Of a DNA stretch of 64,000 nucleotides, positions 1,928-48,368 are shown piece by piece. How positions within the stretch are numbered: the stretch's first letter is position 1; each line of letters begins with the position of its first letter. The notes beneath the pieces were generated by a model. That model saw only the letters and a program-made list of their open reading frames with translations, had not been told where the DNA came from and searched no databases. Origin of the DNA: Strobilurus pachycystidiatus (lineage: Eukaryota > Basidiomycota > Agaricomycetes > Agaricales > Physalacriaceae); NCBI GenBank assembly GCA_019915135.1, contig JAHLMK010000012.1, positions 434,001-498,000 on the forward strand. Direction: 5' to 3'. Position numbers and translations under genes: made by a program.

Positions 1928-2777
1928 ATACGCAGGGTACTATTCCAGTACTAGAAACGGGGAATTTTGCGATTCCTGAACAGCCCAAAGACCTTAGGAA
2001 CCTCCAGTCAGGTACTTAGGATAGAGCACGCAGGAGTTACTGCCTTGACGCGGGCAAGCCTCCAGGACAAGGTCCAGGCGCCTTAACAAGTCCTTTAGGA
2101 CAGGCGCGATCGAAACCTTCGATCACCTTCATCCGAATATCCTTATCCGCGCGTTGGATCCCTTTCAAGATCCCGTACCTTTGCGTGTACCTTGTACTAC
2201 AGACGATGTGCTATAACCATTCGCACCCAAGGAGGGTCCAAAGGTCTCCAGGCGGTTCAGTTCGAGCGACCCAAGACCTGCGCACCTCAACCCAAAGACC
2301 TGGAAGGTCCCGAAATAGTTCAAGGACGTCACAACCCTTTTGGGGAAACAATCTTCGGAGCTGTCAAGGACTCCGAACCGACGCCTTCCGCTATGCCGAT
2401 CGATCATGATCCACGATCAAGGACCACCCCGAAAGCAGGGTGTATTACCACTTTAAGAAAGCACTCCCCTGTAGTGTCTGCGCTCGAAAGGACGTTCTTA
2501 ACGATCTCCATCCAACCTATCCACAAGAAAGCAGGTGTCCGTAGGACCTTGCAACATAAAGATACCTAAGGATCGAAGTCCTTATCGGACCTTGATCTCC
2601 TGGGCACAAGGATTGTACCATACCGCCAAGGTGGCGTATATGGCTAAAGGACCAAGCGGCCTGTCCGCAGTTGTTTCGACCAGGGATAGCCAATAAGAAT
2701 CCAGCACTTGTATGACTCGAAAGTCCGATGTATCCGATCCTAGAATAGATGCTTACTCAGTAGGAACCCACCAGTAG

Positions 2778-2785
2778 TATAAAAG
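2778..2785 (+). promoter_or_regulatory. TATA box of the B LTR promoter
   Basis: TATAAAAG lies about 0.8 kb before the end of the LTR, as expected for the U3/R border. The same box is at 17500-17507 in the 3' LTR, and a TATAAAAGG box is at the matching place in the D LTRs (52264-52272 and 37382-37390, minus strand). Confidence 0.6.
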
Positions 2786-3599
2786 GGCCCAAAGGACCCA
2801 TATTTCGGTAGCTTAGAGCCCCCTCCAGTAGCCGCTAGTCAGACGCAGCCATTGTAGTGAATCTATCTCGAGTTTCGACTCATTTCTGCAAAGTACACAA
2901 AGACCCCAAAGACCTTTCCAAGATTTAAAGACATCAGGTGTTGCCAAACTCCTTGAAAGACTCGAAAGAACCTTATTCCGACGTACCAAGTCAAGTACCA
3001 ACAAATCTACTTGGTGTTAGAACCTTGTATTCGCAAGAAGGCCGGTTTGCAAGTGGTTCTGCCCTGCACTCACGCTCTTTCGTGAAGTACTTCCCTTTGA
3101 GGAATAAGTCGAGTTTGAACGAGTGTTGTCAACGTCTGAGACACCTTTCGGAACCTTTGGTCCCGGTGCAAGACACTAGAAGTTTGGTTTAAGTGCAAGA
3201 AGGAGTCCTTATCGTTAGCAGTCCAGCGGCGTAAAACCTGCGGTAGCGGCCTGACGATTCCAAGACAAAGTCCTTGTACACCAGAGCACTTGATAGGTAG
3301 AAGCTACATTGCCTCGCGCTGTTTAAGGTCTTCATACGTCAAGAGGTTCGGCCTACGACTTCAAGGTTTTCTTGTGTCATTTCGATCAGAATCCCTACAC
3401 CCCCAAAAACAACTCGTAGTTTAACTACAGCATTCGGAATACATCTCTATTTCTCCATTACCCAAAAGCACCTTGTTCTCTCAAACCTTTGTGCACCCCA
3501 GCTCCCTTACAAGGAGTGTTAGTTGTGATAAGGATTGATAGTGTGGTTAGACGATAGCTTCTTTTTCAGAGGTCTATTCCGAACTTGCACATCATATTT

Positions 3600-3617: not shown

Positions 3618-3687
3618 GGTGTAAATTTTGATTTCGAAAGAGACTTCTAAGTCGACCTTGAGATCAGAATCTCCATAACAAAAGACA

Positions 3688-5529
3688 CTGGCTGCAAGGA
3701 ACTCTGGTCGTTACACCAACAGCCAGAACCGCGCAAATCCACAACCACCAAAAGGAGACCCAGTTATTGCCGGATCTTCAAATCCAGCAACCTCTGGTAT
3801 CACTAGTCGCCTAAGAAGCAATCGCCCAATCGCCGGCTCACTTTACAACGGTTTACCTAGTGAAGTAGCTCAAGCACAGCGACGCTTTGCAGACCCGACT
3901 ACTCCCAAGAACCAAAAGAAGAAACGTACGCAAGTACCCCCTTCAACACCTACTGCCTCTAGGATCAGATCTTCTTCAGATCCTGAATCACCTTTGAGAA
4001 CTCCAACCAGTACCCGAAGACATTCGGACTCTAGAACTTCGCCTAGTCCCGCATTTGTGACACCTTTCGGAAGTCCTTTGACTGACCTTGAAGACCCCGA
4101 AAGTCCAGAACCTATTACCCCCTTCATTGACTTTAACACGTCTATCCAAAACACGATACCAGTTCCAGTAATGGCAGTACGAGCAATTGTACCTTCCGAG
4201 GAGCTTAGTGCTGAAGCTAAGAAAGAGATCCAAGGCAAGAAGATTCCGATACCATTCTCAAGAGATGCTCCCAAATTCAAGGGACACTCCGGCGATGATG
4301 TGAGGGAGTTCTTCACGATGTGCAACTGGATCTTTGACCAGACAGGAATCGCCGAACAAGGTACTAAGTTGGAAGTAGCCGCGCTATACGCCGGCCACGA
4401 ACAACGCCTAAGGTGGCACAAAAACCCAGACTACTTGAAAGGTGTCTGGGCGGACTTCCAAGAATCAGTTCTCTCCTCATACTCAAAGGGAAAGAACAAT
4501 CCTACGTACGTCCCGGCCGACCTAAAGGATGCCTTGGACCCGTACCTGGCTAGGCCCATAGCCAACAAGCAAAAGTGGGAAAGCTTTCAGCGCGAAGTGC
4601 TCCATATCATGGGACATCTTATCACGTCGGGAGAACTTACCAATAAGGGTGCTATAGAAGATATCAAGTCCTCTATCACAGAGGGAGTTTGGCATAATGT
4701 CCTTGGGGACCTCAGGCGCGATGCGAAAGCTAATGCAACAGCCGGGACAACCCCCACCTATGACTTCACATTGTCAGAGGTCGAGGCAGCAATCTCCAAC
4801 TACTTCTTGACCGATAAATGGATGAGCAAGAGTGCGAAGGATAGTCCTTATAACAGAGAACTTATTCCCGCCTCTACCACCCGGATCAAGACAGAGGAGT
4901 TAGATGAATACCTTAACAGGGTAGCTAGCCTTCAGGATATTATCCAGAAAGGAGAAAAGGAACGCGAAGAGGCTCGCAAGGCTGATCAGAAGATGATGGC
5001 AGAACTTCTCCATACCTTACAGCGTGGAGGTCCGCAAGGACTCCGCACACAAGGTTTTGTACAAGAAGCCTCGCCGGTTTATCTACAAACACCTGCTCAA
5101 GGTGTCTCAGTCCCGACCAACTTACCGAACGGACTCTACAAAGCTCCTCCGGGCGCGTTCCCAGGAAACAAGTTCGTAGTTAACGATGGAAGGTGCTACT
5201 TCTGTCGTGAGCTAGGACACATTGTAGCAAATTGTCCTACAAAGGAAATGTGCGAAAGCAATGGTCATATCTACAAGCCTGGCGGTACCAACATATATCA
5301 TGTAACGAATGGAACTACTAGTCAACCTATTCAAAGGGTTAGTCCCAAGCAGCCTCTCAGCCCTTGGGAACAAGTTCAGAAGTTTCAACAAGAAAATGCA
5401 CCTAAGGTATCGGCGTTCCAATCTCAAGAAGATGAGTTCGCACCTGAGGTCGCGATGTATGTTCAAACCCCAACCCAAGAAGAAGAGTTTGCCCCCGACG
5501 CCTATCAGGGTTTCGGCAGGGCTCGATGA
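3688..5529 (+). CDS. gag: Gag of element B (probable CTG start)
   Basis: This is the structural protein that packages element RNA. The frame ends at TGA 5527-5529 and has a retroviral-type zinc knuckle near the C-terminus, CYFCRELGHIVANC (C-x2-C-x4-H-x4-C). The first in-frame ATG is at 4171 (MAVRAIVPSEE), but the frame is open and conserved with element D for about 160 codons before it. In both elements that conserved part begins just after a TAA stop, at a CTG in the context purine-x-x-CTGG (3688-3690), so I set the start there, giving 613 residues. A spliced leader supplying an ATG is the alternative. Gag is followed by a -1 shift site and overlaps pro by four bases (ATGA). The frame is intact. 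Confidence 0.85.
   Translation: MAARNSGRYTNSQNRANPQPPKGDPVIAGSSNPATSGITSRLRSNRPIAGSLYNGLPSEVAQAQRRFADPTTPKNQKKKRTQVPPSTPTASRIRSSSDPESPLRTPTSTRRHSDSRTSPSPAFVTPFGSPLTDLEDPESPEPITPFIDFNTSIQNTIPVPVMAVRAIVPSEELSAEAKKEIQGKKIPIPFSRDAPKFKGHSGDDVREFFTMCNWIFDQTGIAEQGTKLEVAALYAGHEQRLRWHKNPDYLKGVWADFQESVLSSYSKGKNNPTYVPADLKDALDPYLARPIANKQKWESFQREVLHIMGHLITSGELTNKGAIEDIKSSITEGVWHNVLGDLRRDAKANATAGTTPTYDFTLSEVEAAISNYFLTDKWMSKSAKDSPYNRELIPASTTRIKTEELDEYLNRVASLQDIIQKGEKEREEARKADQKMMAELLHTLQRGGPQGLRTQGFVQEASPVYLQTPAQGVSVPTNLPNGLYKAPPGAFPGNKFVVNDGRCYFCRELGHIVANCPTKEMCESNGHIYKPGGTNIYHVTNGTTSQPIQRVSPKQPLSPWEQVQKFQQENAPKVSAFQSQEDEFAPEVAMYVQTPTQEEEFAPDAYQGFGRAR
5508..5514 (+). promoter_or_regulatory. Candidate -1 frameshift heptamer, gag to pro
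   Basis: G GGT TTC is positioned in the Gag frame as X-XXY-YYZ, 12 bases before the gag stop. A -1 slip enters the protease frame, giving RQGSMKEGV. D has the same heptamer at 49528-49534 and the same downstream residues RQG(L)MKEGV. Overlapping ATGA could instead allow reinitiation. Confidence 0.55.
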
Positions 5530-6698
5530 AGGAAGGAGTGCAGTTAGCACATACTCCTCCGGAGAGCCAGTTCACTGTAGAAACTTGTCAAACTCGTCAG
5601 AGTACAAAAGCACCTAGTGCACCTTTGGATTCAACTCCACAAAAGAAGGTAACCTCATGGCCTAAGGACCGGGTGTCCGTGGTCATTCCAAAAGCAGCGC
5701 CGCCTAAGGTATCATTCTCCAAGCCGGAAGTCACTCAAGAAGTAGAACCTGTTGACCAGGAACTTCTTGACGAAGTCCTGGCGATGGAAGAACCAGACCC
5801 GGTGCCGCAACCAAAAGCAGATTCAACTCTGCCAGAAAAGAACCAACCAAAGGTTCAACCTAAGGAACCTAAGGTCAAGAGTTTCCAACGTCGTAGCCTG
5901 GCAGAAGAACTCTTGCACAAGAATCCCAGTTGGCGTGAAGCCTGGAAGTTCTTGTTACCCGAAGCCCTACTAGCTACCAACCCCCCTTGGCAGCAGAGCA
6001 TTTCGGACTTCATCAGGAAACGCAACACGCCTGTGGCTGTATTCAAGACGGAAGTAGTGGCCGATACGGTCCAGGATCACTTCCAACCCGAGCTATATTC
6101 AGTCAACTTTCATGAGCAAGGTGATTTACCTATTGGTGGGATTGTAGTCCACGATGCGGTAGAACAGTTTGTAAACCTTTCCGGAGGTCACTATACTGGT
6201 CCCTTTCAAATGATAAGTGGCAATATGGCGCCGGAAAATGCAGATCTACGAACCTTTTGGCCCTTGATTAACAAGAATGGTAAAAAGGAGAGTTTAGTGG
6301 ATGGTGGGTCACAGATTGCCTCCATTTCGCTCAAGGCAGCATTGGAACTAGGAATAGCCTATGATCCCACTTTCACCATTACTATGGAAAGTGCGGACAA
6401 GGGACGAACCAGTACCTTGGGATTGGCTCGTAACATACCTTTTGACTTTGAAGGTATTGTCTATTACCTTCAGCTGCATGTGTTGCAGGATCCCGCCTAT
6501 GAGGTCCTACTGGGACGACCTTTCGAGATCGTTTCCAACCTGGTCATCACCAACCTCCCCAACGGGAACGCAATTGGAACCCTTACGGATAACACCAATG
6601 GGAAGAAGTTATTGTTACCTTCTTACCGTAGAGGTCAAATTCCAAGGCATATGATTCCAGGCGGACAAACGGGTTTTCACGGGAACCTAAGGACGTAG
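5526..6698 (+). CDS. Retropepsin-like protease ORF of element B
   Basis: The 390-residue frame lies one base back from gag and overlaps its stop codon. The first half is proline- and lysine-rich. The second half holds an aspartic-protease signature in variant form, LVDGGSQIAS (catalytic Asp followed by Gly-Gly instead of Thr/Ser-Gly), then a distal hydrophobic segment ending YEVLLGRPFEI, which fits the conserved ILGRDF-type strand of retropepsins. It would process the polyproteins. D has a closely similar ORF at 48341-49516 with the same variant signature. It ends at TAG 6696-6698, overlapping the pol frame, which is open from 6632. The ORF is intact. Translation could come from the ATG at 5526 or by frameshift from gag. 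Confidence 0.85.
   Translation: MKEGVQLAHTPPESQFTVETCQTRQSTKAPSAPLDSTPQKKVTSWPKDRVSVVIPKAAPPKVSFSKPEVTQEVEPVDQELLDEVLAMEEPDPVPQPKADSTLPEKNQPKVQPKEPKVKSFQRRSLAEELLHKNPSWREAWKFLLPEALLATNPPWQQSISDFIRKRNTPVAVFKTEVVADTVQDHFQPELYSVNFHEQGDLPIGGIVVHDAVEQFVNLSGGHYTGPFQMISGNMAPENADLRTFWPLINKNGKKESLVDGGSQIASISLKAALELGIAYDPTFTITMESADKGRTSTLGLARNIPFDFEGIVYYLQLHVLQDPAYEVLLGRPFEIVSNLVITNLPNGNAIGTLTDNTNGKKLLLPSYRRGQIPRHMIPGGQTGFHGNLRT
6671..6677 (+). promoter_or_regulatory. Candidate -1 frameshift heptamer, pro to pol
   Basis: G GGT TTT sits in the protease frame as X-XXY-YYZ, 21 bases before its stop. A -1 slip joins to the pol frame, which runs SREPKDVGNSYEEAVLILE. D has the identical heptamer at 48362-48368 and a conserved overlap peptide, EVGNAYGEAVLILE. 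Confidence 0.55.
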
Positions 6699-9600
6699 GA
6701 AATTCCTACGAAGAAGCCGTGTTGATCCTCGAAAGGTCACCAGAAGGAAACATCGAAGTAAAGCAAAGTTGGATACCTGGGGATAACAGGGAGACCTTCG
6801 GGGAAGGGGACTTAACGTCCTTATACATGAAGAAGTCACCCAATAGGGTTCATCAGGCAGCCAAAAGGTTAAGGAAACAACACGCCTTTATGCATGCATC
6901 GATGCACCCAGCATCGACACACATGACTGTCCCAGAACATATGGTGACACCTACGGGACTATTAAAGGTCCCAACCAAGACTCAAGGCTTTCGCAAGGTA
7001 TTCAATATCAACCAGATTGCGGAAGACCAAGAAGAACTTAAGTCCTACGCCACTGCAACTTTGAATCTCTTTTACGGGGTACCAAAGGAGCTAGAACAAG
7101 TCTTTACGGGCTTGTCGGTAACCTTACCAAAGGATTACATGGCGGAGGCCCAACAGGAGTTCCTAAGGTTGGAAAGTCAGATCCCTAAGAGGGGTGTATT
7201 CGTAGGAAAGAAGTACAAACCAGTGGCCTTGAAAACCAAAGCTCACCTTGGAACCTTACCTGAAGAATTCAGGATCAAGCGCCACATTCATGGAAACCCA
7301 CTAGCTGGGATGCCTGAATTAGTACCTGATCCACCACCTTTCGTACCCACAGGTAGGTACACTGCCGAAAGGAGGGAACAGATACAAGCCGACCACGTCG
7401 GGGACTTCCTGACGGATGCAGAAAGACGGATTATAGACTCCATCTTCTGTAACCAGAACGAAGGCTTTGCCTGGGAAGAATCTGAGAAAGGACACTTCAA
7501 ACCCGAGTTCTTTCCACCAGTGGATATCCCGGTAATACCACACACACCTTGGGTGTTAAGGAACATACCAATTCCACCAGGAATCTACGATGAAGTCTGT
7601 AAGATTATCAAACACAAACTAGACTTGGGCGTGTATGAGCCTTCGAACTCCTCATACCGCTCCAGGTGGTTTTGTGTTGTTAAGAAGGATGGAAAGAAGC
7701 TTCGCCTAGTGCATAGTCTGGAACCACTCAATGCGGTGACCATTGCGCACTCAGGGTTACCTCCAGCCACGGAGGAACTAGCGGAGTCCTTTGCAGGACG
7801 AAGTTGTGGAGGGACCTTGGACCTGTTCGTTGGATACGACGAACGGCTCCTTGCCACCGCGTCTCGCGATATGACCACCTTCTCGACACCTTACGGAGCG
7901 TTAAGGTTAAAGACCTTACCAATGGGCTGGACTAATTCAGTACCTATCTTTCATGACGATGTTACAACGATTCTCAAGGATGAAATACCAGCCTTCACCA
8001 GACCTTATATCGACGATGTGCCCGTCCGCGGGCCCGCCACGCGATATGAACAAGCTGATGGTACCTACGAAACGCTTCCAGGTCATCCTGAAGTAAGGCG
8101 TTTCGTTTGGGAACACCTTGTGAACATGAACAGAATCATACAACGAATGAAACATGCCGGAGGGACCTTTTCTGGTCACAAGGCTATCATTTGTGCAGAA
8201 GAAATTGTGGTAGTGGGACATGTCTGTACCTACGAAGGTAGAAAGCCAGCTGAAGATCGCGTTAAGGTGATCTCGGATTGGCCCCCTTGTAAAGCGCTCA
8301 CGGAAGTCCGTTCGTTCTTAGGAACAGCTGGAATCTTCAGAGCCTTTGTAAAGGACTACTCTAAGAAGGCGTTACCTTTGACCAGGTTAACCAAAGACAT
8401 TACCAAGTTCAGATGGACAGACGAGGAGCAAGAAAGTATGGATACCTTAAAGGAAGCCATACGAACTTGTCCGATGCTGAAACCACTGAATTATGAATGG
8501 TCCACGCCAATCACGCTGTCGGTAGACACCTCTTACCAGGCAGTAGGTTTCTATCTGTCCCAGGTAGATCCCAAGGACCCTAAGAAACGATACTTTGCCA
8601 AGTTTATGTCTCTGACATTGAACGAAAGAGAGGCAAGGTACTCGCAAGCCAAGCGAGAACTATTCGGGCTCTTCAGAGCTCTGTCCGCGTGCAAGTACTA
8701 CCTTCTAGGTTGTAGAAAGCTAGAAATTGAAGTAGATGCAAAATACATCAAGGGCATGTTATCCAACGTAGACTCCTTAGCGAACGCAAACCTGCAAAGG
8801 TGGGCTGAGGAGATCTTGATGTACCACTTCACGCTTGTACACGTACCAGGAAAGGTTCATGGCCCGGATGGTTTAAGTCGCCGTCCAGCCTCAGAGCATG
8901 ATGTAGTAGTACCCAGACCTCACATAGACATAGAGGATGACGAGGTCAATACCTTTGAGTACCAGGAGCCCAAAGGTCTGCCTATAGAGAAGCAACCTTT
9001 AGACTTTGACACTTTCAGGAATGACATCGACAGTAGGGGAGGCTATTTCCAGGAAATAGTACGGAGTCCTTTACCAGACCATATAAAGGTTTCTAAAGCG
9101 GTAAGGACTGCGGGACTAGTCAACGTTAAAGATATCGAAGGATGGATGCATATCACGGAGTTCCCGGAGCTCAATAAGAGCAAACGAGAACGGTTGTGGG
9201 AGACCTATTTGCCCAAACTTCAACCTTACTTACAATCGGAAGATGTACTTGAGGACGAAGACTTGGAGAAATGGAGCAAGGACTTCTTTGTCCAGCATGA
9301 AAGGTTATACCGAACACATTCGGACTCCCACCCCCGTCGAGTGCTACTTCCAAATGAACGAATCCCGGTTTGTAAAGCTCTACACGACCGGGCAGGCCAT
9401 AAAGGACAATATTCCGTGTTACAACTCATAATGAAGCGATTCTGGTGGCCAGGTATGGAGGTCGACATACGATGGTATGTAAGGACCTGCGTCCTATGCC
9501 AGAAACGCCAGAAACGTAACATAAAAGTTGCACCAACAATTACTTCGACTCCAGGTATCTACGAAAGGGCTTATATAGACACCTTCCGGATGCCTAAGGC

Positions 9601-10564
9601 AGGAGAGGAATCCATTCGAAAGAAACGACCTTCGAAATGGGCTGGCTTCAATGCTGTGACCGTAGCAAGGTGTGGATTAACAAGTTGGCCAGAGGCAAGG
9701 GCTCTCAAGGAAGAGACCGCCGAGTCGCTGGGAGAATGGATCTTCGAGGACATTCTGTGCAGGTGGGGTTGTATCAAGGAAATTGTAACCGATAATGGGC
9801 CAGCAATCAAGAAGGCCTTAGTACATATCGAACAGAAATATGGTATTACAGGTATCTTGATCACGGCGTACAATAAACAAGCCAACGGAAAGGTTGAACG
9901 AGGACACTGGGATATCCGTCAATCTCTCTTCAAGGTATGCAGGGGTAAACCCGAGCAATGGCCAGAGTTCCTACATGAGGTCCTTTGGGCAGAGCGCATT
10001 ACCATAAAGAGAAGTCTAGGTACTTCAGCGTTCCAGGCAGTAACCGGTTGTGAACCAATCATGCCAATGGACCTGGAGGAATTGACTTGGCTGGTCGAAG
10101 CACCAGGTCGGCTGGTCTCCCATTCGGACCTTATTGCCTTCCGAGCTAGGCAGCTCATCAAGCACAAAGAGGATACTGTCAAGCTAAGGTCAAAGGTCCT
10201 TCTAAATAAACAGAAGGCCGCTGCAAAGTTCTTGGAGGACTTCCAGAAAAGTATACCTCGCTACAAATTCAAAACTGGTGAACTAGTACTAGTAAGGAAC
10301 ACTAGGATCGAATCAGAAATGAATGCGAAGTTCAAGGAAAGGTTTATGGGACCTTACGCGGTAGTAACAAGGACCTCGGCAGGAAACTATGTGGTCTGCG
10401 AGTTGGACGGAACGATCTACAAAGACAAGATAGCTCAGTTCCGTGTAATACCTTTTGTATCGCGACGAGATCCTATAGACCTTGGAAAACAGTTCTTTGA
10501 CCGACTACACTTCATAAGTAAGCCGATCACGAAGACCTTAGATGTCCTTGCCAGAACTACGTGA
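6677..10564 (+). CDS. pol: Pol of element B: RT, RNase H, integrase
   Basis: This is the replication polyprotein; the frame is open from 6632 and intact to TGA 10562-10564, with no in-frame ATG near the start, so entry is probably by -1 shift at 6671-6677. Counting from 6719: RT has the active-site PYIDDVPV (Asp-Asp near residue 430); RNase H follows, with LSVDTSY and a REARYSQAKRE segment; integrase has the H-H-C-C zinc region (DRAGHKGQY ... CVLCQKRQ, about 890-925), then YIDTF, VTDNG (Asp 1025) and GKVERGH (Glu 1060) as the D-D-E triad. A GPY motif (RFMGPYAVV) follows near the C-terminus. There is no chromodomain, unlike family A. The absence of stops makes B the only copy here with a complete pol. 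Confidence 0.93.
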   Translation, partial: SREPKDVGNSYEEAVLILERSPEGNIEVKQSWIPGDNRETFGEGDLTSLYMKKSPNRVHQAAKRLRKQHAFMHASMHPASTHMTVPEHMVTPTGLLKVPTKTQGFRKVFNINQIAEDQEELKSYATATLNLFYGVPKELEQVFTGLSVTLPKDYMAEAQQEFLRLESQIPKRGVFVGKKYKPVALKTKAHLGTLPEEFRIKRHIHGNPLAGMPELVPDPPPFVPTGRYTAERREQIQADHVGDFLTDAERRIIDSIFCNQNEGFAWEESEKGHFKPEFFPPVDIPVIPHTPWVLRNIPIPPGIYDEVCKIIKHKLDLGVYEPSNSSYRSRWFCVVKKDGKKLRLVHSLEPLNAVTIAHSGLPPATEELAESFAGRSCGGTLDLFVGYDERLLATASRDMTTFSTPYGALRLKTLPMGWTNSVPIFHDDVTTILKDEIPAFTRPYIDDVPVRGPATRYEQADGTYETLPGHPEVRRFVWEHLVNMNRIIQRMKHAGGTFSGHKAIICAEEIVVVGHVCTYEGRKPAEDRVKVISDWPPCKALTEVRSFLGTAGIFRAFVKDYSKKALPLTRLTKDITKFRWTDEEQESMDTLKEAIRTCPMLKPLNYEWSTPITLSVDTSYQAVGFYLSQVDPKDPKKRYFAKFMSLTLNEREARYSQAKRELFGLFRALSACKYYLLGCRKLEIEVDAKYIKGMLSNVDSLANANLQRWAEEILMYHFTLVHVPGKVHGPDGLSRRPASEHDVVVPRPHIDIEDDEVNTFEYQEPKGLPIEKQPLDFDTFRNDIDSRGGYFQEIVRSPLPDHIKVSKAVRTAGLVNVKDIEGWMHITEFPELNKSKRERLWETYLPKLQPYLQSEDVLEDEDLEKWSKDFFVQHERLYRTHSDSHPRRVLLPNERIPVCKALHDRAGHKGQYSVLQLIMKRFWWPGMEVDIRWYVRTCVLCQKRQKRNIKVAPTITSTPGIYERAYIDTFRMPKAGEESIRKKRPSKWAGFNAVTVARCGLTSWPEARALKEETAESLGEWIFEDILCRWGCIKEIVTDNGPAIKKALVHIEQKYGITGILITAYNKQANGKVERGHWDIRQSLFKVCRGKPEQWPEFLHEVLWAERITIKRSLGTSAFQAVTGCEPIMPMDLEELTWLVEAPGRLVSHSDLIAFRARQLIKHKEDTVKLRSKVLLNKQKAAAKFLEDFQKSIPRYKFKTGELVLVRNTRIESEMNAKFKERFMGPYAVVTRTSAGNYVVCELDGTIYKDKIAQFRVIPFVSRRDPIDLGKQFFDRLHFISKPITKTLDVLARTT

Positions 10565-10700: not shown

Positions 10701-10903
10701 ATTTAACTTATTCTGTGCCCAGCTGGCTACAAAGGTAGCTAGGGTAGCATTGAACTAAGGACAGAATAAGGAAGCAAGACAAGGCACGAGGCATCAGGGA
10801 AGTGGCGGGGTGCGAATAAAGAAAAGCTTAAAAGTGATAAGCCCGTAGGCGATGTGGTAAGCGCAGAAAAGGAAGCACCACTCACCAAACAACCACCACA
10901 ACC

Positions 10904-13016
10904 ATGCTCCCTCAAGAGAACGACCCCACTGTGGACGCAAAGGTAAGTGCCTGGCACGATCACAGCGTAGAACGAGGCGGTGAACTTACTTACCAAAAGG
11001 AGCAGTCACCGCCGCCATCGCAGCCGCCGACGAAAGACAACCAGGAGCCTCCCGCAGTCCAGGAAGAGAAGGAAATGGAGGTGCAAGGGCAGGAGCAGGT
11101 GAGTAGTGACAAACAACGCGTTGAGAAACGGCGAAACTCACCACTACCACCCCCTCTGCTAGCTCCCGTCCATTCCCTGCGAAGCCAGGCCGGACCATGT
11201 CAAAATGACGCGTCCCCTGTTCGACTACGGCGGTTTCTTGACGAACAGGACCGCGCCGCCGGAACTAGACGCAGGTATCAGCCTGCACCTGGCCGAGTTG
11301 CTGTGCGCCAACCCAACGACGACACGGGAGATCTTGCAAAAGGCCGGGTACCACGACTACCTGCACAATGGGGTATTCTGGCTAACGTTCCAGGACGCGC
11401 TAGCGGCGAAACCAGCCAGCAGAGCCACTCCGCTCGAACGAGTGGAGACCGCGCTCAGCACCGCGTGGCGCGCCACCTCCGCCTACAAAAAGCAGGTCCG
11501 CCCCACCCGAGCCACCACTTTCCTGAACAACGACCGCGTGGCCCCAGAGCTCGCGATCCGGCTCTCAGAAGACGACGCTCAGCGTTGTTTTCTGGAGTTG
11601 GACCATCTCTGGAACTTCGTGCACGATCAGGACCGCGCCAACCTATTCTGGGGCGCCTTGATAGTGGAGATGCGCAAGCAGCGCGACGACCTTCCCATCC
11701 GCAGGTCGTTCCTCAAGACGATGGATAACCTCATCAAAAGCGCGATCGCCGAGCTTGGCATCGCAGACTACCAGCGCGACGAAACACCGAGTCTCGACAG
11801 CAAGGTCGACGACAAGGGCACTCCGCGCCCCACCATGCAGCAGCTTGCGCAGGAGGCGTCGCCCAGTCCCCGCGACTCGCAAATCCCGTCACCAGCGCCC
11901 GCCTCGCACCACGAACCCACGCCCGAGCCCGAGATGGAACCCCCGGCGCGTCGACCATACGTCGCGGCAGGGAAGGGGGGCCCCAAATTGGTTACCAAGT
12001 ACGTCGCTCACCGTACCGTCGCACCCGTAATCTTTGCTAATGCCCCGGCCAGGCCGAAGGCCGTCGTCGTAAAAGTGGAACCGAAGGACAAGGACGTCGC
12101 CCCCACCCGGAAAACCTCGGTCGCGCGCGCCACCACTGGTGGAAGCCAGAAGCGCAAGTTCGTCGAGGAGGAACCGGAGGAGGAGGACGAGTTGGACGAA
12201 GATGCCGAAGCCAGCGACGAGGAGGAGGACGACTTTGTCCTCGATGTACGCGACAAGACCAACCCGCGTATCCCCCTCCACCGCGACGACGGCTTCTGCG
12301 TCCCGTGCATCAAGCAGAAGTTGGGTTGCACCTACTTCAGGATCCACGCCACGCCCGCGGAGAAGAATAACAGCTTCACCTGCGACCAGTGCAAGGAGAA
12401 GGACGGGCAGCACGGTCCGTGCTGGGTCGCATGGAGGCGAAGCCAGGTCCCCAAGCCGTGGAAGGAGGTCGCGCTGAAGGTCCGCGCCCAGTTGCAGGCT
12501 GTGGCAAGGAACAAGCCCGACTCCCAGATCCGGGCCCGGCGCCACCAGGACTACTCCAACGCCGCGCAAGCCATCGCCAAGGAAGCGGACCAGCGGTGGA
12601 AGGAGGAGAAGCAGAGGAAGAAGGACGAGCCCCCGGCGAAGCGCCGTCGCGTCGAGAGCACGGCGGGAAAGAAGGGCAAGGCGAAGAAGGAGGAAACGTC
12701 GGACGAAGAGGGCACCGGCGACTCCGACGTCGAGGAGGTCCAAGCGCCCCGCACCCGCCTCCAGAAGGGAAAGGTCAGCGCCGCCCCGCCTCCCGCCTCG
12801 ACCAAGTCCTCGAAGGGGGCCACCACCTCGATCAGCGCGGCCCAACGACAGGACAAGGGCGAAGGAGTCAGCCGTCAAGGCGCGCCGTCCTCCGCCTCCG
12901 CCAGCCGTGTCGACCCCGCCGAGGACGTGGACAAGGTCCTGGCGTTGTACTTCTCCCTGAGTGAGAAGAATCGTCGGAAGTTCAGGAAGGTAGCCGAGAT
13001 TGCGGTGGGACGTTAG
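10904..13016 (+). CDS. Accessory gene Z: Zn2Cys6-like cysteine-cluster protein (sense, 3 exons)
   Basis: Exons 10904-10942, 11000-11098 and 11163-13016 give 663 residues; introns are GT-AG of 57 and 64 bp and all phases are 0. After a Pro/Gln-rich start comes a conserved N-terminal domain of about 200 residues beginning RPLFDYGGF. Next are an acidic block, then CVPCIKQKLGC ... CDQCKEKDGQHGPC (about residues 425-470), spaced C-x2-C-x6-C-x17-C-x2-C-x9-C. This resembles a fungal Zn(II)2Cys6 DNA-binding cluster with a long loop. Basic, NLS-like runs (AKRRRVE) and a conserved short helix (ALYFSL) follow at the C-terminus. Element D has an orthologue with the same three-exon structure. A nuclear DNA- or RNA-binding role is inference; I recognise no named family. 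The overlapping antisense ORF at 11889-12878 is a GC-codon shadow. Confidence 0.85.
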
Positions 13017-13402
13017 TAGCGTCCCGCCGCTAAATCTTTTTTATCTATATACACAAATACCAGTCAGTGCCAAAAGGACACTTTTTCATATACGCATTCC
13101 CCGCCCCGTTGTATTTTATAAAAATATACAACTTCTTGTATTCCAAAGAACCGTGTGAAAACACTAAGAATGCAAGAACAAGGGACCTTAGCTGGCACCT
13201 TTAAGTCAAGGGGAGAGTCCAGGACTCTCCTTGATATACCAAAGGTCGCGAAGGTCAGCGGCTAGGGACCTTAGACGATAAAAAGGTCCACAGGGAACTG
13301 CTTTACAAGTAAAGTAATACAGACAAAGCAATGTGACTATAAGGAACATTCGTAAGGAAGAAATGAAAAGCGACCTTTAGGTCAAAAGAAGTCATCTAAG
13401 GA
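13017..13402. other. Intergenic between convergent Z and Y
   Basis: This AT-richer stretch holds the probable 3' ends of Z (plus) and Y (minus), the internal polypurine tract, and a perfect 9-bp inverted repeat GGAGAGTCC-A-GGACTCTCC at 13211-13229 that overlaps the tract. No gene is seen. Confidence 0.6.
13202..13216 (+). other. Internal second polypurine tract of element B
   Basis: TAAGTCAAGGGGAGA is identical over 15 bases to the polypurine tract at 16633-16647 directly before the 3' LTR. D has the equivalent internal copy at 41691-41707, matching its own terminal tract. It could be a central plus-strand primer or a scar of how the antisense module was added. Confidence 0.65.
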
Positions 13403-14540
13403 CTAAGCAAAACGACTCCAATCAGGAGGGACCGCAAGGTTCGCAAGGCGGGCGTAGAAAGGTCCTGCGTTGCGAAGGTCGATTGCTAACATACTAGCAG
13501 CAAGGAGTTCGTAGTCTACTTCGGTGGCCTCCGACCAGTCGATGAGCCAGAGCAGTGGATTGATGATAGGCAGCGACTGGTTGGGGCGCTGGAAACACAG
13601 AAGTTACAAACGGACCTCAAACTACGAAGTTGTTCACGGACCCGATTGGCGGGAAGGTCAATCTCGGGGATCAACCGACGCATATTGGGAGGTCTATCCA
13701 ACGCGTAGGCGTCGTCCCAGCCGTAAAGAGCAGAGTTCTGACGTTGGAACTCTGGCCACCACTTCATAACCGTGACAAGGTCGGCAGGAAGGTCCCCATA
13801 CTGAACAGGAAGGACCTTCAGGTTGTCAGACCCGATGTAAAGCAAGCGAAGGAGTGTGGAAAAGCCGGAGTAACCACCAAAGTGGGCCTCGACCTACGTC
13901 TAAGGTCAGCGCCGACCACAAGACATGAAAGGAAAAGACCAGGTTTAACTCACCATGAAAGGTCCGATGAACTCTTGGGTAAACCAAGGGTGACTCGCAA
14001 GGATGTCCATGTTAAGGTCCCCCAGGTGGAAGCGGGCGCCTTCACCGTCAAAGGTATTGCCTTCGGCGAACCAAGCTTTGCAAAGTTCGACGGCGGTGTA
14101 GTACAAAGGAAAGAAGTGCGCCTTGAAACCGTGAGGAATGGCCCCGTTCTGGAAGTGAAAAGCGGGTTCCCAGATATAACGAAAGCGGACCTAAGGACCA
14201 TCCGTTAAAACGAGAAAGGTGTCGAGACAAAATCAACTAGACTGACCAGAACGTGCAAAAGATAGCGCAAGGTCGGGACGTCTAGAGGTTCGTCACGACC
14301 AAAGGCATGAACCGGAGGCTTGAGCTGGGGAAGGAGGCAAGTGTCGTCTTCCGTAGCTAAGGTCCCATCAGGACGACGAACTACCGCGACGAAGTAGCGT
14401 GTATAGTTGTACATCTCCATGGCGCAGCTCAGCGCAAGGTCAGCTGTGACTAAGTCATGTTGAAAGGAGGTCAAAGGCGAGCGAAGTCGAACGCCTTGAA
14501 TACGGGTATCTGCAAAGGAAGGCAGGACGGGCGCGGGCAT
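13403..14540 (-). CDS. Accessory gene Y (antisense, 4 exons), unknown function
   Basis: Read on the minus strand the exons are 14540-14247, 14190-13954, 13893-13642 and 13588-13403, giving 322 residues, the same total as its counterpart in D (40415-41534). Exon lengths are 294, 237, 252 and 186 bases against 294, 240, 252 and 183 in D; all introns are phase 0. The start MPAPVLPSFADTR matches MPIPILPSFSDTR in D. Conserved blocks include PLDVPTLRYLL, FFPLYYTAVELCKAWF and VTVMKWWPEFQRQNSALYG. The last 53-bp intron has weak donors (GTCCGT here, GTTCGT in D) but is needed in both to reach the conserved WLIDWSEA / WEIDWSNA reading. There is no signal peptide, membrane segment or known enzymatic motif. 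Being antisense, its introns cannot be spliced out of the genomic RNA. Confidence 0.85.
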
Positions 14541-14915
14541 GATCAAAGATGAGATTCCTGTCGCCACGACCGACTTAAAAGAAAACCTCCGCCAGTCAAG
14601 AAGGTCCGAACACGCCGATAAAAGGACAAAGTTTAGGCGCCACCAATCTAAAGGTAGGTACGATCGGCGATAGCCGATCAAACTAAGTTCGATCTTAGGC
14701 CTACCAGGAGGCGGTCAGGAAACTTTGAGGGTTCAAATCGAAAGGAGTTGGATTATGCACCAACTGGGCCTAGAGTAGTCTAAGGAAACAAAGTGACTAC
14801 CGCTCCTACAAGTAGAGAAGAAATCCGAAACCAGTATAAAGACGAAGTAGAGAAAAACTATGAGTAGTACTGGTTAAGACTTGGCGAAAGCTAAGCTAAA
14901 GAAGGACCTTGTAGT
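14541..14915. other. Intergenic between Y and X
   Basis: These 375 bp must hold the promoter of Y and the 3' end of X, both on the minus strand. I see no clear TATA box for Y here, whereas the D copy has one (40373-40380). No gene seen. Confidence 0.5.
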
Positions 14916-16449
14916 CTACTGAGCCTGGTCAATCGCGTCTAAGGCCGAGATATAAAGGTCGCGAGTTGACTGCAAGACTTGGATACGACCCCGAATCTTG
15001 TTGAAGGTCGAGATAATGTCGTGCCGGTACTGGCGTTCCAAAATGACCAAGTTGGGCGAGATGTTGGGATCGTCAAGACCAGACAACCTTGACATACGCT
15101 TGTGGACTTGGGCCAAGGCAGCAGACAGACCATTGATGTACTGGTTCGCTAAGGGGAAGTAACCAGGAATCAACAAGGCAAACCAAGGAGCGAGGAAGAA
15201 GCACCTTACCGCCTTCAAGTTGTTTAAGAACGACGGGTTCGACCCCAAAGGTCGAAGGCCGGGCCGCCTTTACAACACGGCGAGCATTCTCATCGTTAAG
15301 CTTACGCTTAGGAGGAGCTTCTTGACCATTGATCGCGCCCAAGGTTTGAAGGGCTTTCTGGTAAACACGGGCGTTAATGTCCATACCGGGAAGAGCTGCG
15401 AAAGGAAGGTAACGGACGGAAGATGACTATTAAAGAAGTCATAAGGAAGTCCGGGACAAACATAGGATTCAAAGGAACGTACCGCTTCGGCTTCCTTTGA
15501 CAAGGAATTGGCGACTTGGAGCTGGCGAAAGGCTTCAATAAAGGAAGATGAGACTGGCAAAGAAATTGAGCGCACAGTATCACCGACGACGACAACGGAG
15601 TCCTCACCGTCGCTCTCGCCAGCTGCCACATCGTCAGCCCAATTAAAGTACTCCGGACGAAAGAAGCGCGCACAAGAGTCGGGATCCATCGCGACGTCGC
15701 CGTCTCCCGTCTCGGCTCGTTTCTCCATGGCCTCAGTAACGACCTCGGGCGATTTCTTCGTCTTCTAAGCGAAGACATCCAGAGGTTACAGTAGGAAACC
15801 GACGAGTAACAAACGGACATACCTTGCCTTTCTCAACCTTGTCCGGCTTGAAATAAGCGTTATCCGGATGCATAGGGTGACCCGGGGACAGGCCAGGGAA
15901 GTGGGCGTTAGACGCCTTCTTGCAGCTGCTCACCAAAGGTTGGAGGATATGAGCGATGTGGTGCGTCGGCGTCTGAGGGTGAATCCCCAGCAGGTGTACC
16001 AGCATCCCTACATAGAGGCGAAGGTTGAAAAAGAACACCGCCATGTCCGTCGACACCTTGGAACCATTCGGAAAGGTGCGAAGGTCATGGGCGACGGCCT
16101 AAAGAAAACAAGGACAGGATGAAGTCAGGATCAGGAAAAGAACACAGCGAAGGAGACACACAAGGACTCTCTCCATGATCTTGTCAACATAGCCGGTGAT
16201 CTCCAGTGCCACGTCGGGATTCGAACACGCCTTCTTGAGGTCCAGACGATGGACCTTGGGAATGATGAGCGTAAGATGCATGCCGAGGTACATAAGGAAG
16301 TCGGGTGTGTTGGCTGGAGGGTCGTAGTCAAGCGCATAAGCGACGAGACCGGCGCCAAGGTCGCGCGTAGTGATCAGGCCCTTTGCGGACGGAACGTGCG
16401 GCGTTGTGGGAAGCAGTCTTGCGATGGGAGTCCAAGTTTTGGGAGCCAT
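14916..16449 (-). CDS. Accessory gene X (antisense, 6 exons), unknown function
   Basis: Minus-strand exons are 16449-16162, 16098-15823, 15764-15576, 15521-15483, 15426-15210 and 15148-14916, coding 413 residues. Exon sizes 288, 276, 189, 39, 217, 233 compare with 288, 270, 183, 39, 217, 233 in D, with the same phases. Conserved parts are the start MAPKTWTPIARLLP, LLGIHPQTPTHHIAHILQPL, SVRYLPFAALPGMDINARVY, and a helical C-terminus with QYINGLSAALAQVHKRM and LERQYRHDIIS. The third exon is acidic. No transmembrane segment, signal peptide or catalytic motif is visible and I recognise no family. A TATA box lies 47 bases upstream, so it appears to be its own transcription unit, opposite to the retroelement RNA. 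Confidence 0.87.
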
Positions 16450-16495: not shown

Positions 16496-16504
16496 CCTTT
16501 TATA
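16496..16504 (-). promoter_or_regulatory. TATA box of gene X in B
   Basis: TATAAAAGG on the minus strand, 47 bases before the X start codon. D has TATAAAAA at 38402-38408 in the matching position. Confidence 0.6.
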
Positions 16505-16647: not shown

Positions 16648-18316
16648 TGATACGCAGGGTACTATTCCAGTACTAGAAACGGGGAATTTTGCGATTCCTG
16701 AACAGCCCAAAGACCTTAGGAACCTCCAGTCAGGTACTTAGGATAGAGCACACAGGAGTTACTGCCTTGACGCGGGCAAGCCTCCAGGACAAGGTCCAGG
16801 CGCCTTAACAAGTCCTTTAGGACAGGCGCGATCGAAACCTTCGATCACCTTCATCCGAATATCCTTATCCGCGCGTTGGATCCCTTTCAAGATCCCGTAC
16901 CTTTGCGTGTACCTTGTACTACAGACGATGTGCTATAACCATTCGCACCCAAGGAGGGTCCAAAGGTCTCCAGGCGATTCAGTTCGAGCGACCCAAGACC
17001 TGCGCACCTCAACCCAAAGACCTGGAAGGTCCCGAAATAGTTCAAGGACGTCACAACCCTTTTGGGGAAACAATCTTCGGAGCTGTCAAGGACTCCGAAC
17101 CGACGCCTTCCGCTATGCCGATCGATCATGATCCACGATCAAGGACCACCCCGAAAGCAGGGTGTATTACCACTTTAAGAAAGCACTCCCCTGTAGTGTC
17201 TGCGCTCGAAAGGACGTTCTTAACGATCTCCATCCAACCTATCCACAAGAAAGCAGGTGTCCGTAGGACCTTGCAACATAAAGATACCTAAGGATCGAAG
17301 TCCTTATCGGACCTTGATCTCCTGGGCACAAGGATTGTACCATACCGCCAAGGTGGCGTATATGGCTAAAGGACCAAGCGGCCTGTCCGCAGTTGTTTCG
17401 ACCAGGGATAGCCAATAAGAATCCAGCACTTGTATGACTCGAAAGTCCGATGTATCCGATCCTAGAATAGATGCTTACTCAGTAGGAACCCACCAGTAGT
17501 ATAAAAGGGCCCAAAGGACCCATATTTCGGTAGCTTAGAGCCCCCTCCAGTAGCCGCTAGTCAGACGCAGCCATTGTAGTGAATCTATCTCGAGTTTCGA
17601 CTCATTTCTGCAAAGTACACAAAGACCCCAAAGACCTTTCCAAGATTTAAAGACATCAGGTGTTGCCAAACTCCTTGAAAGACTCGAAAGAACCTTATTC
17701 CGACGTACCAAGTCAAGTACCAACAAATCTACTTGGTGTTAGAACCTTGTATTCGCAAGAAGGCCGGTTTGCAAGTGGTTCTGCCCTGCACTCACGCTCT
17801 TTCGTGAAGTACTTCCCTTTGAGGAATAAGTCGAGTTTGAACGAGTGTTGTCAACGTCTGAGACACCTTTCGGAACCTTTGGTCCCGGTGCAAGACACTA
17901 GAAGTTTGGTTTAAGTGCAAGAAGGAGTCCTTATCGTTAGCAGTCCAGCGGCGTAAAACCTGCGGTAGCGGCCTGACGATTCCAAGACAAAGTCCTTGTA
18001 CACCAGAGCACTTGATAGGTAGAAGCTACATTGCCTCGCGCTGTTTAAGGTCTTCATACGTCAAGAGGTTCGGCCTACGACTTCAAGGTTTTCTTGTGTC
18101 ATTTCGATCAGAATCCCTACACCCCCAAAAACAACTCGTAGTTTAACTACAGCATTCGGAATACATCTCTATTTCTCCATTACCCAAAAGCACCTTGTTC
18201 TCTCAAACCTTTGTGCACCCCAGCTCCCTTACAAGGAGTGTTAGTTGTGATAAGGATTGATAGTGTGGTTAGACGATAGCTTCTTTTTCAGAGGTCTATT
18301 CCGAACTTGCACATCA
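16648..18316 (+). repeat. 3' LTR of element B
   Basis: 1669 bp, starting TGATACGC and ending GCACATCA, with short inverted termini. It is nearly identical to the 5' LTR and is followed by the GCGT duplication. Confidence 0.95.
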
Positions 18317-36563: not shown

Positions 36564-38258
36564 TGATATGCACGTTCGAAATAGACCTCTAAAAAGGGAC
36601 TATGAAATCTATCCTATCTATCCTTATATCTCACTAATACTCCTTGTGGGAGCGAGGCTGGTGTAGTTGTTCAAAGGAACAAGTACTTTTGGTATTGGAA
36701 CAATAGAGATGTATTACGAACTTGCGTTCGAGTAGTTTTAGGGGGTGTAGGGAGATTGATTCACAAAGTCGAACAAGATAATCTGAAAGTCGTAGGCCGA
36801 AGTCACAACGTACGGAGACCTTAAACAGCGCGAGGCAATGTAGCTCCTTCTTATTGATCGTTCTTTTATACAAGGTGATTGTCTTATGGCAGGCCGCTAC
36901 CGTAGGTGTTTATGCTACTGGACTGCTACCAAGTAAGGCGATTTCCTTGTCTTTAAACCAAACTTCTAGTGTCTTGGACTGGGACCAAAGATTCCGTAAG
37001 GTGTTTCAGACGATAACAACACTCGTTCAAACTCAACTAAACTCCTCAAAGGCGAATACTTCACAACAGAGCGTGATTGCAAGGCAGAACTACTTGCAAC
37101 CCGGCCTTCTAACGAACACAAGGGTCTAACGCCAAGTGGTGTCGTTTGGTATTGTCTTAGTGACTTGGAGGATAGGAACCTATGAGTTCTTCAAGGAGTT
37201 TGCTAACACCTGATATCGCCTAAATGGTTCTAAGGTCTTTTTGGGGCTTTCAAGGTCTTTTGGGTTCTCTCAAATTCAGAGTAAGTTGAGTCGAAACTTG
37301 AGTTAGATTCACTACAGCGACTGCGTATTACTAGCGGATACTGTGGGGGCACTAAGCTACCTATCTACTGGCGCTTGCTGGCCTTTTATACTATTCCTAC
37401 TATTCTGTACTGTAAGCGGGTTTACTACTCGTCGGGCCTCTCGGAGGTCGAGTCATTCTGTACTAGCGTCCTGATTGGCTATCCCTGTTCGAAACAGCCG
37501 ACCCGGGAGAAGACTGAACACTTGGTCAGCGCCAAGTGCGCCACACCACCGATCTGACTCTTCCTTAAGTCTATTTCTGTCTCCCGAGGTTCCGCTTGTC
37601 TTGGCAAAACTCCTTAATGAGTTCTTTCGTGTCTTTAGGCGTTGGTTGGGTTTATCCTTAGCGCTTGGAAGGTAATTCATTTTCGACAACCCAGTGACGC
37701 CACATCAATATGTGAGTTCCAGTGAGGTACAAGGTCCATGATCGGGCCTTTTAGCCAGGTCTATCTTTAGTGATCGGCGGCGGCGGATCGAAGTCCGTTT
37801 TCTTTGGTGCGGGGCGTCGGAGCGGAGATCACTATTCCGAAGGCGCCATGGCCCGGAAGAGAGATCTTCTCCTTTGATCTATTCTTGGTCGCGCGAGTTC
37901 TGACTTGGCACGAGTAAACTCCTTGAGCCTTCTTGGTAGAGTATCTCCTGCCTGGGTACTTTCCGTAGTGCTATTTCTGGTAGGCACTTGTCGTTGCATG
38001 ACCGACACGGTTGAATGAACTCCTGGTTTTAAGAGTACAACGCTTGGATAATGATATTCGGAGTTAAGGAGTATGATCGGTCGATCATACCGCGTCCTAA
38101 AGGCGCGTATCCCTTAGTCCTGGAGACTTGCCTGCGTTAAGGTAGTTTCTCCGTGTGTCTCTCTGGTCGTTGTGCTGTGACTGGAAGTCCTGGCATAGAC
38201 TCCGACAGGAATCGCAAAATTCCCTGGTTCTGGCACTAGGATTCTACAATGCGTATCA
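36564..38258 (-). repeat. 3' LTR of element D
   Basis: 1695 bp. On the minus strand it runs from TGATACGC (38258) to GCATATCA (36564). TATA box TATAAAAGG at 37382-37390. Confidence 0.95.
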
Positions 38259-38455: not shown

Positions 38456-39963
38456 ATGGCTCCCAAATCCTGGACTTCCTGCGCTCGTCTTTTGCCTTCG
38501 GTCCCTTACCTCCCTTCCGCGAAGGAGATCGCCACTCACAAGGACGCTTCCGTCGCCGTCCTCGCCTATTCCGTGGAATACGATCCTCCTGCGACCACCC
38601 CGGACACCTTTACGGTCCTCGGGCTTCGCATGTCGATGGCTCTCCCTCGCCTCAACCGTCTCGACATCAAAAAGGCCTGCCTCAACATGGAACTTTCCAA
38701 GCAGATCACCGAGCAGGTCGACAAAATCATGGAGGCGGTCTTGGTGTGTCCCTTTTTATCCTTCGTGCCTGTCGTCGTTTCCTTAATTCCTCCTAGATGG
38801 CCAACACCGACATCAAGTACGTTCCTTCCGACTCGAAGGTCCCATCCGACCTTGTCTTGTTCTTCCACAACGTCAAGAACTATCTCGGATTGACGCTTCA
38901 TCTCCTTGGCATTCATCCTCAAACGCCTTCGCACCACATCGCGCACATCTTCCAACCTTTGGTGAACACCGCCAAGAAGATGTCGAACGCGCAGTTCCAG
39001 CCTTTGCCTGCTGATCATCCCATGCATCCGACCAACGTCTTTGTTAAACCGGACCCCAAGGTCAAGGTTTGTCATACTTGTTCATTAGGTCTTTCTTAAC
39101 GCCTTACCTCTTCACAGGGAAAAAGCAAGAAATCTCCTGAAGTTATCACCGACGCTATGGAGAAACAGGCGGAAGAAGACATCGACATGGATGCCGATGG
39201 CCGTGCGCGATTCTTCAAGCGCGAGTATTTTGATTGGGCTGACGATGTTGCAGAAGCCGACACCGACGGTGAGGAGTCCGTGATTGTCGTTGGTGAGAAC
39301 GTACGCTCAATTCCTTTATAGCCCTTCGCCTTCAGCTGGCTGATTTCTTCCAACAGATGTCCTTGTCCAACAACCTTTTCAAAGAGGCGGAAGCGGTGAG
39401 TCGTTTATTACTCTTGGTCTTTTTGCCTTTACTTGGTTCTGATTGGGATTCCCCTTTAGAGCACTTCTGTGCGTTATCTTCCTTTTGCTGCCCTACCCAA
39501 GATGGACGTTAACGCCCGTGTTTATCAGCGCGCCATGCAAACCTTGGGATCCCTCAACGGTCAGGAACTTCCTCCTAAGCGCAAGCTCCCCGACGACCTT
39601 TCTCGCCGCGCCGCTAAGGCTGCTCGTCCTTCGACCTTTATGATCGAGCCGGTCTTGCTCAAGCAATTGGATGCGGGTACGTCCTGTTACTTTGATCTGT
39701 CTTTCTCCTTTCTGACTCCTTGGATATTAGCGCCCCAGTATATCAACGGTTTGCAGGCCGCCTTGACGCAGGTTCACAAGCGCATGACCCGCTTGGCCGG
39801 TGTGGATGATCCCAATATTTTGCCGGGACTTCTCCAGTTGGAGCGTCAATACCGCCACGACATTATCTCGTCTTACAATGAGATCCGGGGTCGTATTCAG
39901 TTCGTTTTGTCGACTCGGGATTTGTACATTTCCGCCTTAGACGGAGTGGACCAAGCCCAGTAG
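38456..39963 (+). CDS. Accessory gene X of element D (antisense, 6 exons), unknown function
   Basis: Exons 38456-38743, 38797-39066, 39118-39300, 39357-39395, 39460-39676 and 39731-39963 encode 409 residues. Start MAPKSWTSCARLLPSVPYLP is close to that of the B copy. Other conserved stretches are LLGIHPQTPSHHIAHIFQPL, SVRYLPFAALPKMDVNARVY and LERQYRHDIISSYNEIRGRI. Four of six exons have exactly the same length as in B, and the two acidic, variable exons differ by whole codons. This is the signature of a gene kept under protein-level constraint. It lies opposite to the direction of the retroelement transcript, with its own TATA box, and shares a 451-bp spacer with Y in head-to-tail order. No known domain. 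Confidence 0.87.
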
Positions 39964-40414: not shown

Positions 40415-41534
40415 ATGCCTATCCCGATTCTTCCTTCGTTTTCTGACACTCGCCTTCGCGGCATCCCTTTGCACAACCAACCTGCTCCGGAGGAGCTCGA
40501 GGCCCTACTTGGCGAATTGGCCTTGACCAGCGCCTTGGAATTGTATACCTTCGCTCGGCGATTCAGCATCGTTATCCGCTATGACGACGGTACTCTCTCC
40601 ACGGTTGACGATACTGCGGCGGTAGCTGCCTTAGAAGAGCCAGTGCTTCATTTTGGTGAAGGGAAGCCTTTGGATGTCCCGTCCCTGCGGTATTTGTTGT
40701 ATACCTTGGTGCGTAACAACGCCTTAGGCCCTTTATGCCTGCTTACTTCCACTCCAGCGTCGTCTGGCGTATATGTGGGATCCCGCCTTCTACGAAAACC
40801 CCGTCATTTACCTTGGCTTTCGCCAGTACTTCTTTCCCTTGTACTACGGAGCCGTGGAGCTCTGTAAGTCCTGGTTCCGAGCCGTCAATGGAAGGACCCT
40901 CGACGGTTTTGCCCTTGATAACTTCCTTGGGTATGGTTTGCTGGACATCCCGGGCGTGCATCCCGACTTGATGAAGGACATTATTCCCCGGTTCATGGTG
41001 CGCAAACACCTTCTCCAGAACCGCCTTGTCTGATTATTTCTTCCAGGTGGAATCCACCTTCGGCGGTTACATGGGATTCGATTCCACTCTTCGCGAGTTG
41101 ATCCTCGATCCAAACGCCTTGCGGATCCTCCCTGTTCAATACGATCAAACGCCTCCGTCCATCGTAACCGTTATGAAGTGGTGGCCGGAGTTCCAGCGAG
41201 CGAATTCTGCCTTGTATGGTTTTCCTAAGTTGGGAGCCTTGATGCGACCTACTCGTCTTAGGCGTTTGGCTCCCCACGTTGAAGTTCCTTCGAACACTGT
41301 TCGTCAACTCCTTCCCGCGCTTCGCACACCTTGTAACTTCTGTGCTTGTAGCGAGCCGATGAGCATTTGTCTTTTGTCACTCCATCCTTCTGGGAAATAG
41401 ACTGGTCAAACGCCTCTGCACTGGACTACAAACTCCTGGAGAACTATATCATGATTCTTGATGTTAGGTCTTCGGGTTTCTTCTACGAACGCTTAGCGCG
41501 TCTCCCAGTGGGTCCGGATTGGAATCGTTTTTAG
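40415..41534 (+). CDS. Accessory gene Y of element D (antisense, 4 exons), unknown function
   Basis: Exons 40415-40708, 40758-40997, 41047-41298 and 41352-41534 give 322 residues. Conserved with B: MPIPILPSFSDTR, GKPLDVPSLRYLLYTL, QYFFPLYYGAVELCKSWF, VTVMKWWPEFQRANSALYG, and the C-terminal GFFYERLARLPVGPDWNRF. The last intron (41299-41351, donor GTTCGT) is exactly 53 bp as in B. A shorter reading that skips it would create an apparent CNFC motif but would lose the conserved WEIDWSNA end. Transcription is opposite to the retroelement and convergent with Z. No signal peptide or membrane segment. Function unknown. Confidence 0.85.
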
Positions 41535-47400: not shown

Positions 47401-48368
47401 GAAGGTTCATATACGCCTGAGTCTAGTTTGTGCTTGATTATCTTACAGACTTCATCGTAGATTCCTGGGGGTATAGGTATGTTTCTTAACACCCACGGAG
47501 TATGTGGAATAACGGGTATATCGACAGGTGGAAAGTACTCTGGGTCAAAATGTCCTTTTTCCATTTCCTCCCAGGCGAATCCCGCATTCTGTCCACACAT
47601 AAGTTGGTCTACGATTCGTCTTTCCACCGAAGTCAGAAAATCTCCAGGGTGGTCCGCTTGTAGTTGTTCACGTCTTTCCGCAGTATACCTTCCAGTTGGT
47701 ACGAAGGGCGGGGGATCTGGACTGAGTTCAGGCATTCCTGCTAGAGGATCGCCTTTGATATGTCGTTTGATCCTGAATTCTTCGGGTAGAGTCCCCAGAT
47801 GGGCTTTGGTTTTCAGCGCCATCGGTTTATACTTTTTCCCGGCGAACACGCCTCGTACTGGACGTTGACTTTCCAACTCCAGGAACTTGTCCTGTGCTTC
47901 CGTCACATAATCTTTAGGTAGCGTTACTGAAAGTCCTGAGAATGATTTGTGCAACTCCTGTGGTACCCCATAGAAGAGATTCATGGTTACTGTGGCGTGG
48001 GACTTAGTTCGTTCTTGATCTTCGGCAATTCCCTTTATGTTAAACACCTTTCGAAATCCTTGTACCTTGGTTGCGTTGATTTCTTTCAATAAACCCCGAG
48101 GCGTTACCAGGCTAGCTGGGACAGTTCCTGGCACCGTAGAGGCTTTTATAAAGGCATGTTGTTTCCTAAGGCTTTTTGCCGCCTTGTCTATGTACGCAGG
48201 AGATTTCTTCAGGTAGAGGGACGTTAAGGCTCCTTCTCGGAAGTGTGCTTCATTTTCTCCTGGTACCCATGTTTGCTTGACTTCTACATTACCATTAGGT
48301 GATCTTTCCAGGATCAACACCGCCTCTCCGTAGGCGTTTCCTACTTCCTTGAGTCCAGGTGAAAACCC
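44483..48368 (-). pseudogene. pol: Pol of element D, disabled by a stop and a frameshift
   Basis: The frame aligns with B Pol over its whole length: PYIDDVPV in RT, RNase H, integrase zinc region (CLICQKRQ), YIDTF, VTDNG, GKVERGH, RFMGPFAVV. It breaks twice. TAA at 46506-46508 follows SVDTSY where B reads CAG (CAA to TAA would do). Near 45988-45992 two bases are missing relative to B (GAA-ATA-GTA-CGG against GAA-A-GTC-AGA), shifting the frame just before the integrase part. The reading frame upstream is entered at the conserved GGGTTTT (48362-48368). The stop at 44483 gives the same C-terminus type as B (DMIAKTT). Confidence 0.9.

Follow-up and report, generated by a model that had tools for sequence, protein, structure and literature searches.

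The 64,000-nt window analyzed here (Strobilurus pachycystidiatus, contig JAHLMK010000012.1, positions 434,001 to 498,000) contains two large long terminal repeat (LTR) retrotransposons, B (1928-18316) and D (36564-53140, minus strand). Between pol and the 3' LTR, both carry three additional genes in the same layout: Z in sense, then Y and X in antisense (Table 1). The gene models built for both elements confirmed this layout, first seen in the preliminary description of the locus.

Table 1. Features of elements B and D (positions in the window)
Feature	Position	Strand	Details
B 5' LTR	1928..3594	+	1667 bp; 99.88% identity to 16650-18316
B gag frame, CCHC knuckle	3679..5529	+	616 aa; 67% identity to D gag
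B protease-region frame	5448..6698	+	416 aa; overlaps gag, -1 frame
B pol frame (RT, RNase H, integrase)	6632..10564	+	1310 aa; overlaps protease-region frame
B Z	10904..13016	+	3 exons (10904-10942, 11000-11098, 11163-13016), 663 aa
B Y	13403..14540	-	4 exons (14540-14247, 14190-13954, 13893-13642, 13588-13403), 322 aa
B X	14916..16449	-	5 or 6 exons (16449-16162, 16098-15823, 15764-15483, 15426-15210, 15148-14916), 409-431 aa
TATAAA, candidate antisense promoter of B X	16499..16504	-	55 nt ahead of B X start codon
B 3' LTR	16650..18316	+	partner of 1928..3594
D 3' LTR	36564..38258	-	1695 bp; 99.94% identity to 51446-53140
D X	38456..39963	+ (antisense to D pol)	6 exons, 412 aa; 63% identity to B X
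D Y	40415..41534	+	4 exons, 322 aa; 49% identity to B Y
D Z	41940..44001	-	exon-3 frame 627 aa; 36% identity to B Z
D pol region	44483..48392	-	frame broken in D copy, two separate frames
D 5' LTR	51446..53140	-	partner of 36564..38258

B and D are Ty3/Gypsy LTR retrotransposons. In B, the LTRs surround gag and pol, and pol is Ty3-like (best match among solved structures, Ty3 Gag-Pol, 4e-37). In Pfam, B pol matched Integrase_H2C2 (1.4e-17, at 909-962) and RT_RNaseH (4.4e-15, RNase H at 595-731), which places reverse transcriptase (RT) and RNase H ahead of integrase. The zf-CCHC match of gag (E 0.0011, 19.4 bits) fell under the cut-off of 20.8, and the protease-region frame gave a weak gag-asp_proteas match below cut-off (E 0.017).

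The introns of the three genes, mostly 53-67 nt long, a size that suggests a fungal host, come from exons modelled by hand and then confirmed with a spliced protein-to-DNA aligner. Among B-type modules, X fitted five exons in 21 of 23, with the same donor hexamers and TAG acceptors, and Y fitted four exons in all 23, of which one has a GC donor and an intron of 105 nt; since the aligner permits only such introns and no stops, these fits are in part built in. Each of the four B introns of X lies within two alignment columns of a same-phase intron in D, which has one more, and the three introns of Y occupy identical columns in B and D. In E, another family with the module, the last intron of X and the first of Y share their column with B; the remaining X introns agree in phase but are displaced by 2 to 17 columns, there is no match for the third Y intron, and Y exceeds 322 aa, with a stop about 8 residues further on. 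Intron positions and gene fits thus indicate, at the sequence level, that X and Y are antisense, intron-bearing genes and not chance frames.

The candidate promoter TATAAA of B X is matched by chance in 2.2% of dinucleotide shuffles of the same 150 nt. The motif precedes the start codon by 39-55 nt in four of the six antisense genes tested (B X, D X at 54 nt, D Y at 42 nt, and E Y), and none was present at the corresponding distance before B Y and E X. X retains a basic KRK stretch, resembling a nuclear localization signal (NLS), in four families. No Pfam family scored above cut-off for X or Y (four X and three Y proteins, E-values up to 1) or for Z, in line with the preliminary description, which recognized no family for any of the three. 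Hydropathy was low throughout: each of eight X, Y, and Z proteins had at most two 19-residue windows above 1.6, with the maximum in B X. On hydropathy alone, an env-like nature was rejected, as there is little hydrophobic sequence.

Within this one genome, to which our comparisons refer, three families or more, B, D, and E among them, have the module in the same layout, and X extends to a fourth. Identities to B range from 31 to 63% for X and from 25 to 49% for Y. Of the genome matches, 75 of 81 to X and 58 of 59 to Y lie no more than 20 kb downstream of a related pol and in antisense to it. The introns common to B, D and, largely, E, together with an E pol that is 68% identical in protein to that of B, point to old residence in the lineage. 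Selection on the three genes is purifying, with ratios of nonsynonymous to synonymous substitution rates (dN/dS) of 0.09 for X, 0.15 for Y, and 0.18 for Z, well below 1, and of 0.06 for pol. The preliminary description had read the genes as stable cargo kept by selection in an LTR lineage, possibly with regulatory or host-interaction functions: selection and residence in the lineage were borne out, and the functions we can only infer.

Z is the variable member of the module: it is hypervariable among copies, its N-terminal half is fast-turning, and it carries basic NLS-like stretches. Two relatives in other contigs are 67% and 45% identical. The cysteine cluster of B Z reads CX2CX6CX17CX2CX9C, and the pattern CX2CX6C ... 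CX2CX6-9C is present in five of the six Z proteins compared, one of these five with an extra cysteine. The second half is CX2CX6C in both E-family Z proteins and CX2CX9C in B, D, and locus L033; family F has one cysteine replaced. This partly resembles the fungal Zn(2)Cys(6) factors, whose six cysteines are spaced CX2CX6C/CX2CX6-8C and whose middle loop usually spans 5-12 residues, whereas that of Z spans 15-22 and the Pfam Zn_clus match is far under the gathering score. Structure prediction did not yield a solved structure of Z.

We tentatively favor, with less than even confidence, the reading that in this Ty3/Gypsy lineage Z, Y, and X form a functional accessory module, not captured junk, and exert trans-acting, nuclear, element-wide control. 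The module would act on all family copies bearing the family motif described below, and its likeliest job would be to maintain their transcription against host silencing, or to tune it. X and Y would be conserved machinery expressed from their own antisense promoters, and Z, with its Zn2Cys6-like cluster and fast-turning half, may be an exchangeable specificity or host-contact subunit. Antisense placement lets the introns of X and Y survive the sense-strand RNA intermediate. Such control would be analogous to plant VANC anti-silencing, a likeness of kind, presumably without homology.

The family motifs are AAGGT in B and D and AWTCGA in E. A mechanism of own-family recognition, in which X and Y with a swappable Zn-cluster Z read this pentamer or hexamer code and shield or activate every copy bearing it, independently of plant VANC, is conceivable but doubtful. 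Instead, the motifs could be a functionless by-product of RT error bias or odd codon use, with the module made of plain regulators without a motif system; this we consider somewhat unlikely. AAGGT exceeds synonymous-codon shuffles in B coding sequence (106 vs. 48.7) and is also enriched in noncoding DNA (35 vs. 8.9). A word with AAGGT topped an unbiased word scan in both B halves, being above the null limit in gag-pro-pol, whereas three module-less control coding frames stayed under their null limits. On the side of a by-product, motif sites showed no significant constraint within the B family, the motifs were first chosen from the data on which they were later tested, and one word of the control noncoding set also passed its null limit (GTCCAA, z 7.4). 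B and the noncoding DNA of E show the enrichment clearly, D more weakly. AAGGT density is lower in Z (3.3 per kb, vs. 7.3-18.1 outside it in B; 1.9 vs. 4.4-10.1 in D), which is consistent with exchange of Z.

Seven Z types occur on one backbone, 0.6% apart within types and 16% between them, and mosaic copies occur; Z has been exchanged between backbones. This count rests on nucleotide alignments, because the Z-frame filter retained 14 of the 30 sequences tried. With dN/dS of 0.12-0.16 between six representatives, the types look functional. Such diversity would suit self-recognition or copy control by Z, with or without X and Y, in which elements of the same type limit each other, rare types gain and many persist through negative frequency dependence. 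We consider this unlikely: Z type is not mirrored in the LTRs (Zn-LTR rho 0.17, Mantel p 0.16) and is weakly mirrored in Y and X, leaving no clear type-specific cis target outside Z, and in the E family each of the two Z genes is mostly 96-100% alike over about 20 copies. Positive selection as the source of Z diversity was rejected, the ratio being 0.04-0.24 in every interval along the gene.

Some further observations concern the arrangement of the module. The E family has two tandem Z-like genes (L029 6345-7899; 9071-9991 with L030 1-909, minus strand), whose C-terminal parts are about 30% identical. Locus L027 (C1:4004342-4014330) has pol, Y, and X but no Z, with 448 bp from pol to Y. Between Y and X (14400-15000 of B), another, smaller block has two haplotypes in 20 copies (92-94% vs. 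about 99%) that do not fully track Z type.

The module is dispensable in cis: deletion derivatives lost Z, Y, and X together and still spread. Among the 40 candidates listed out of 94, 15 loci have an identical deletion junction. The 14 other than L036 each differ from it over a 71-base query, nine of them scoring alike, and intact copies, among the matches listed, are 100% identical to L036 on either side of the deletion; both findings are what one would expect if a line had spread once the deletion had arisen. Purifying selection combined with the spread of module-less copies would also fit Z, Y, and X as replication factors in trans –in particle assembly, RNA export, nuclear import, or targeting–, with full copies mobilizing the gag-pol-only derivatives. 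Most LTR elements, however, need only gag-pol, Z and X have no detected similarity to gag, and none of the three proteins matched a Pfam family above cut-off, so this role is also improbable. Two deletion copies (C3:2141138 and C3:2154775, G000) are separated by 13,637 bp, the offset being the same for gag as for pol, and perhaps represent a tandem or segmental duplication.

That the element acquired the three genes from the host by transduction, or carries them as cargo that benefits the host, is very improbable: their introns are typical of host genes and X had no relative in the protein collection searched, whose fungal coverage is uncertain, but nearly all X and Y matches keep their place behind a related pol and the common introns point to old residence.

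Returning to the favored accessory module, searches of the open-access PMC literature showed no fungal element of this kind among the papers listed. The nearest in anatomy are the plant Ty3/Gypsy elements Retand, Grande (gene23), and RIRE2, which are described as having a long post-pol region with antisense extra open reading frames (ORFs) before the 3' LTR, an own antisense promoter (in Grande; a candidate here), a suspected regulatory nuclear protein, and recently active defective copies (PMC7264820, PMC11963269). In plant LTR retrotransposons, the function of such antisense genes is stated as unknown (PMC7264820). The TRP28 domain (PF04195) of the Retand and Grande type was not found in the antisense ORFs here, in the same Pfam search of X and Y. 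VANDAL is a DNA transposon, whereas ours is an LTR retrotransposon. For VANDAL in Arabidopsis, the element protein VANC is reported to change fast and to go with a motif code specific to the family (PMC5735166, PMC10398659). The likeness lies in element-encoded accessory proteins whose sequences diverge from one related element to another, and in short element-specific motifs enriched in the element. VANC targets are described as noncoding and often tandemly repeated DNA, whereas here the motif is spread over coding and noncoding DNA; VANC-like tandem repeats sought in B gave one weak array only. Complex retroviruses (HTLV, Tat, Rev) also place regulatory genes, some antisense, beside gag-pol (PMC7264820, PMC11963269). 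They differ in that no strongly hydrophobic env-like product is present here, and Pfam indicated no sequence relation.

This genome is a natural experiment in which complete elements coexist with derivatives that lack Z or all of Z, Y, and X, with seven Z types, and with several families that differ in motif code. What antisense accessory genes do thereby becomes directly testable, and the test would show whether sequence-specific counter-silencing arose more than once.

In B, gag, pro, and pol occupy three overlapping frames, with a GGGTTTY heptamer in both overlaps, placed in the register that a -1 shift requires: GGGTTTC at 5508-5514 (gag/protease) and GGGTTTT at 6671-6677 (protease/pol). 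The same heptamers are present in the D overlaps (49516-49543 and 48341-48392), a conserved arrangement as for two candidate -1 frameshifts.

In L031 (6700-9990), frames downstream of an F-family X and Y remnant resemble what we take to be pieces of a P-type ATPase gene, and a host gene may have disrupted F or may lie next to the site where F inserted. Around B and D, no matches to X, Y, or Z on the surrounding Gypsy-type stretches were among the results listed for the window. Both elements are apparently nested inside copies of these other elements, whose repeated pieces are 98.7-99.9% identical (18317-22548 and 58104-63999; 1-1036 and 57072-58107; 35993-36563 and 62719-63289; 53141-53855 and 63286-64000).
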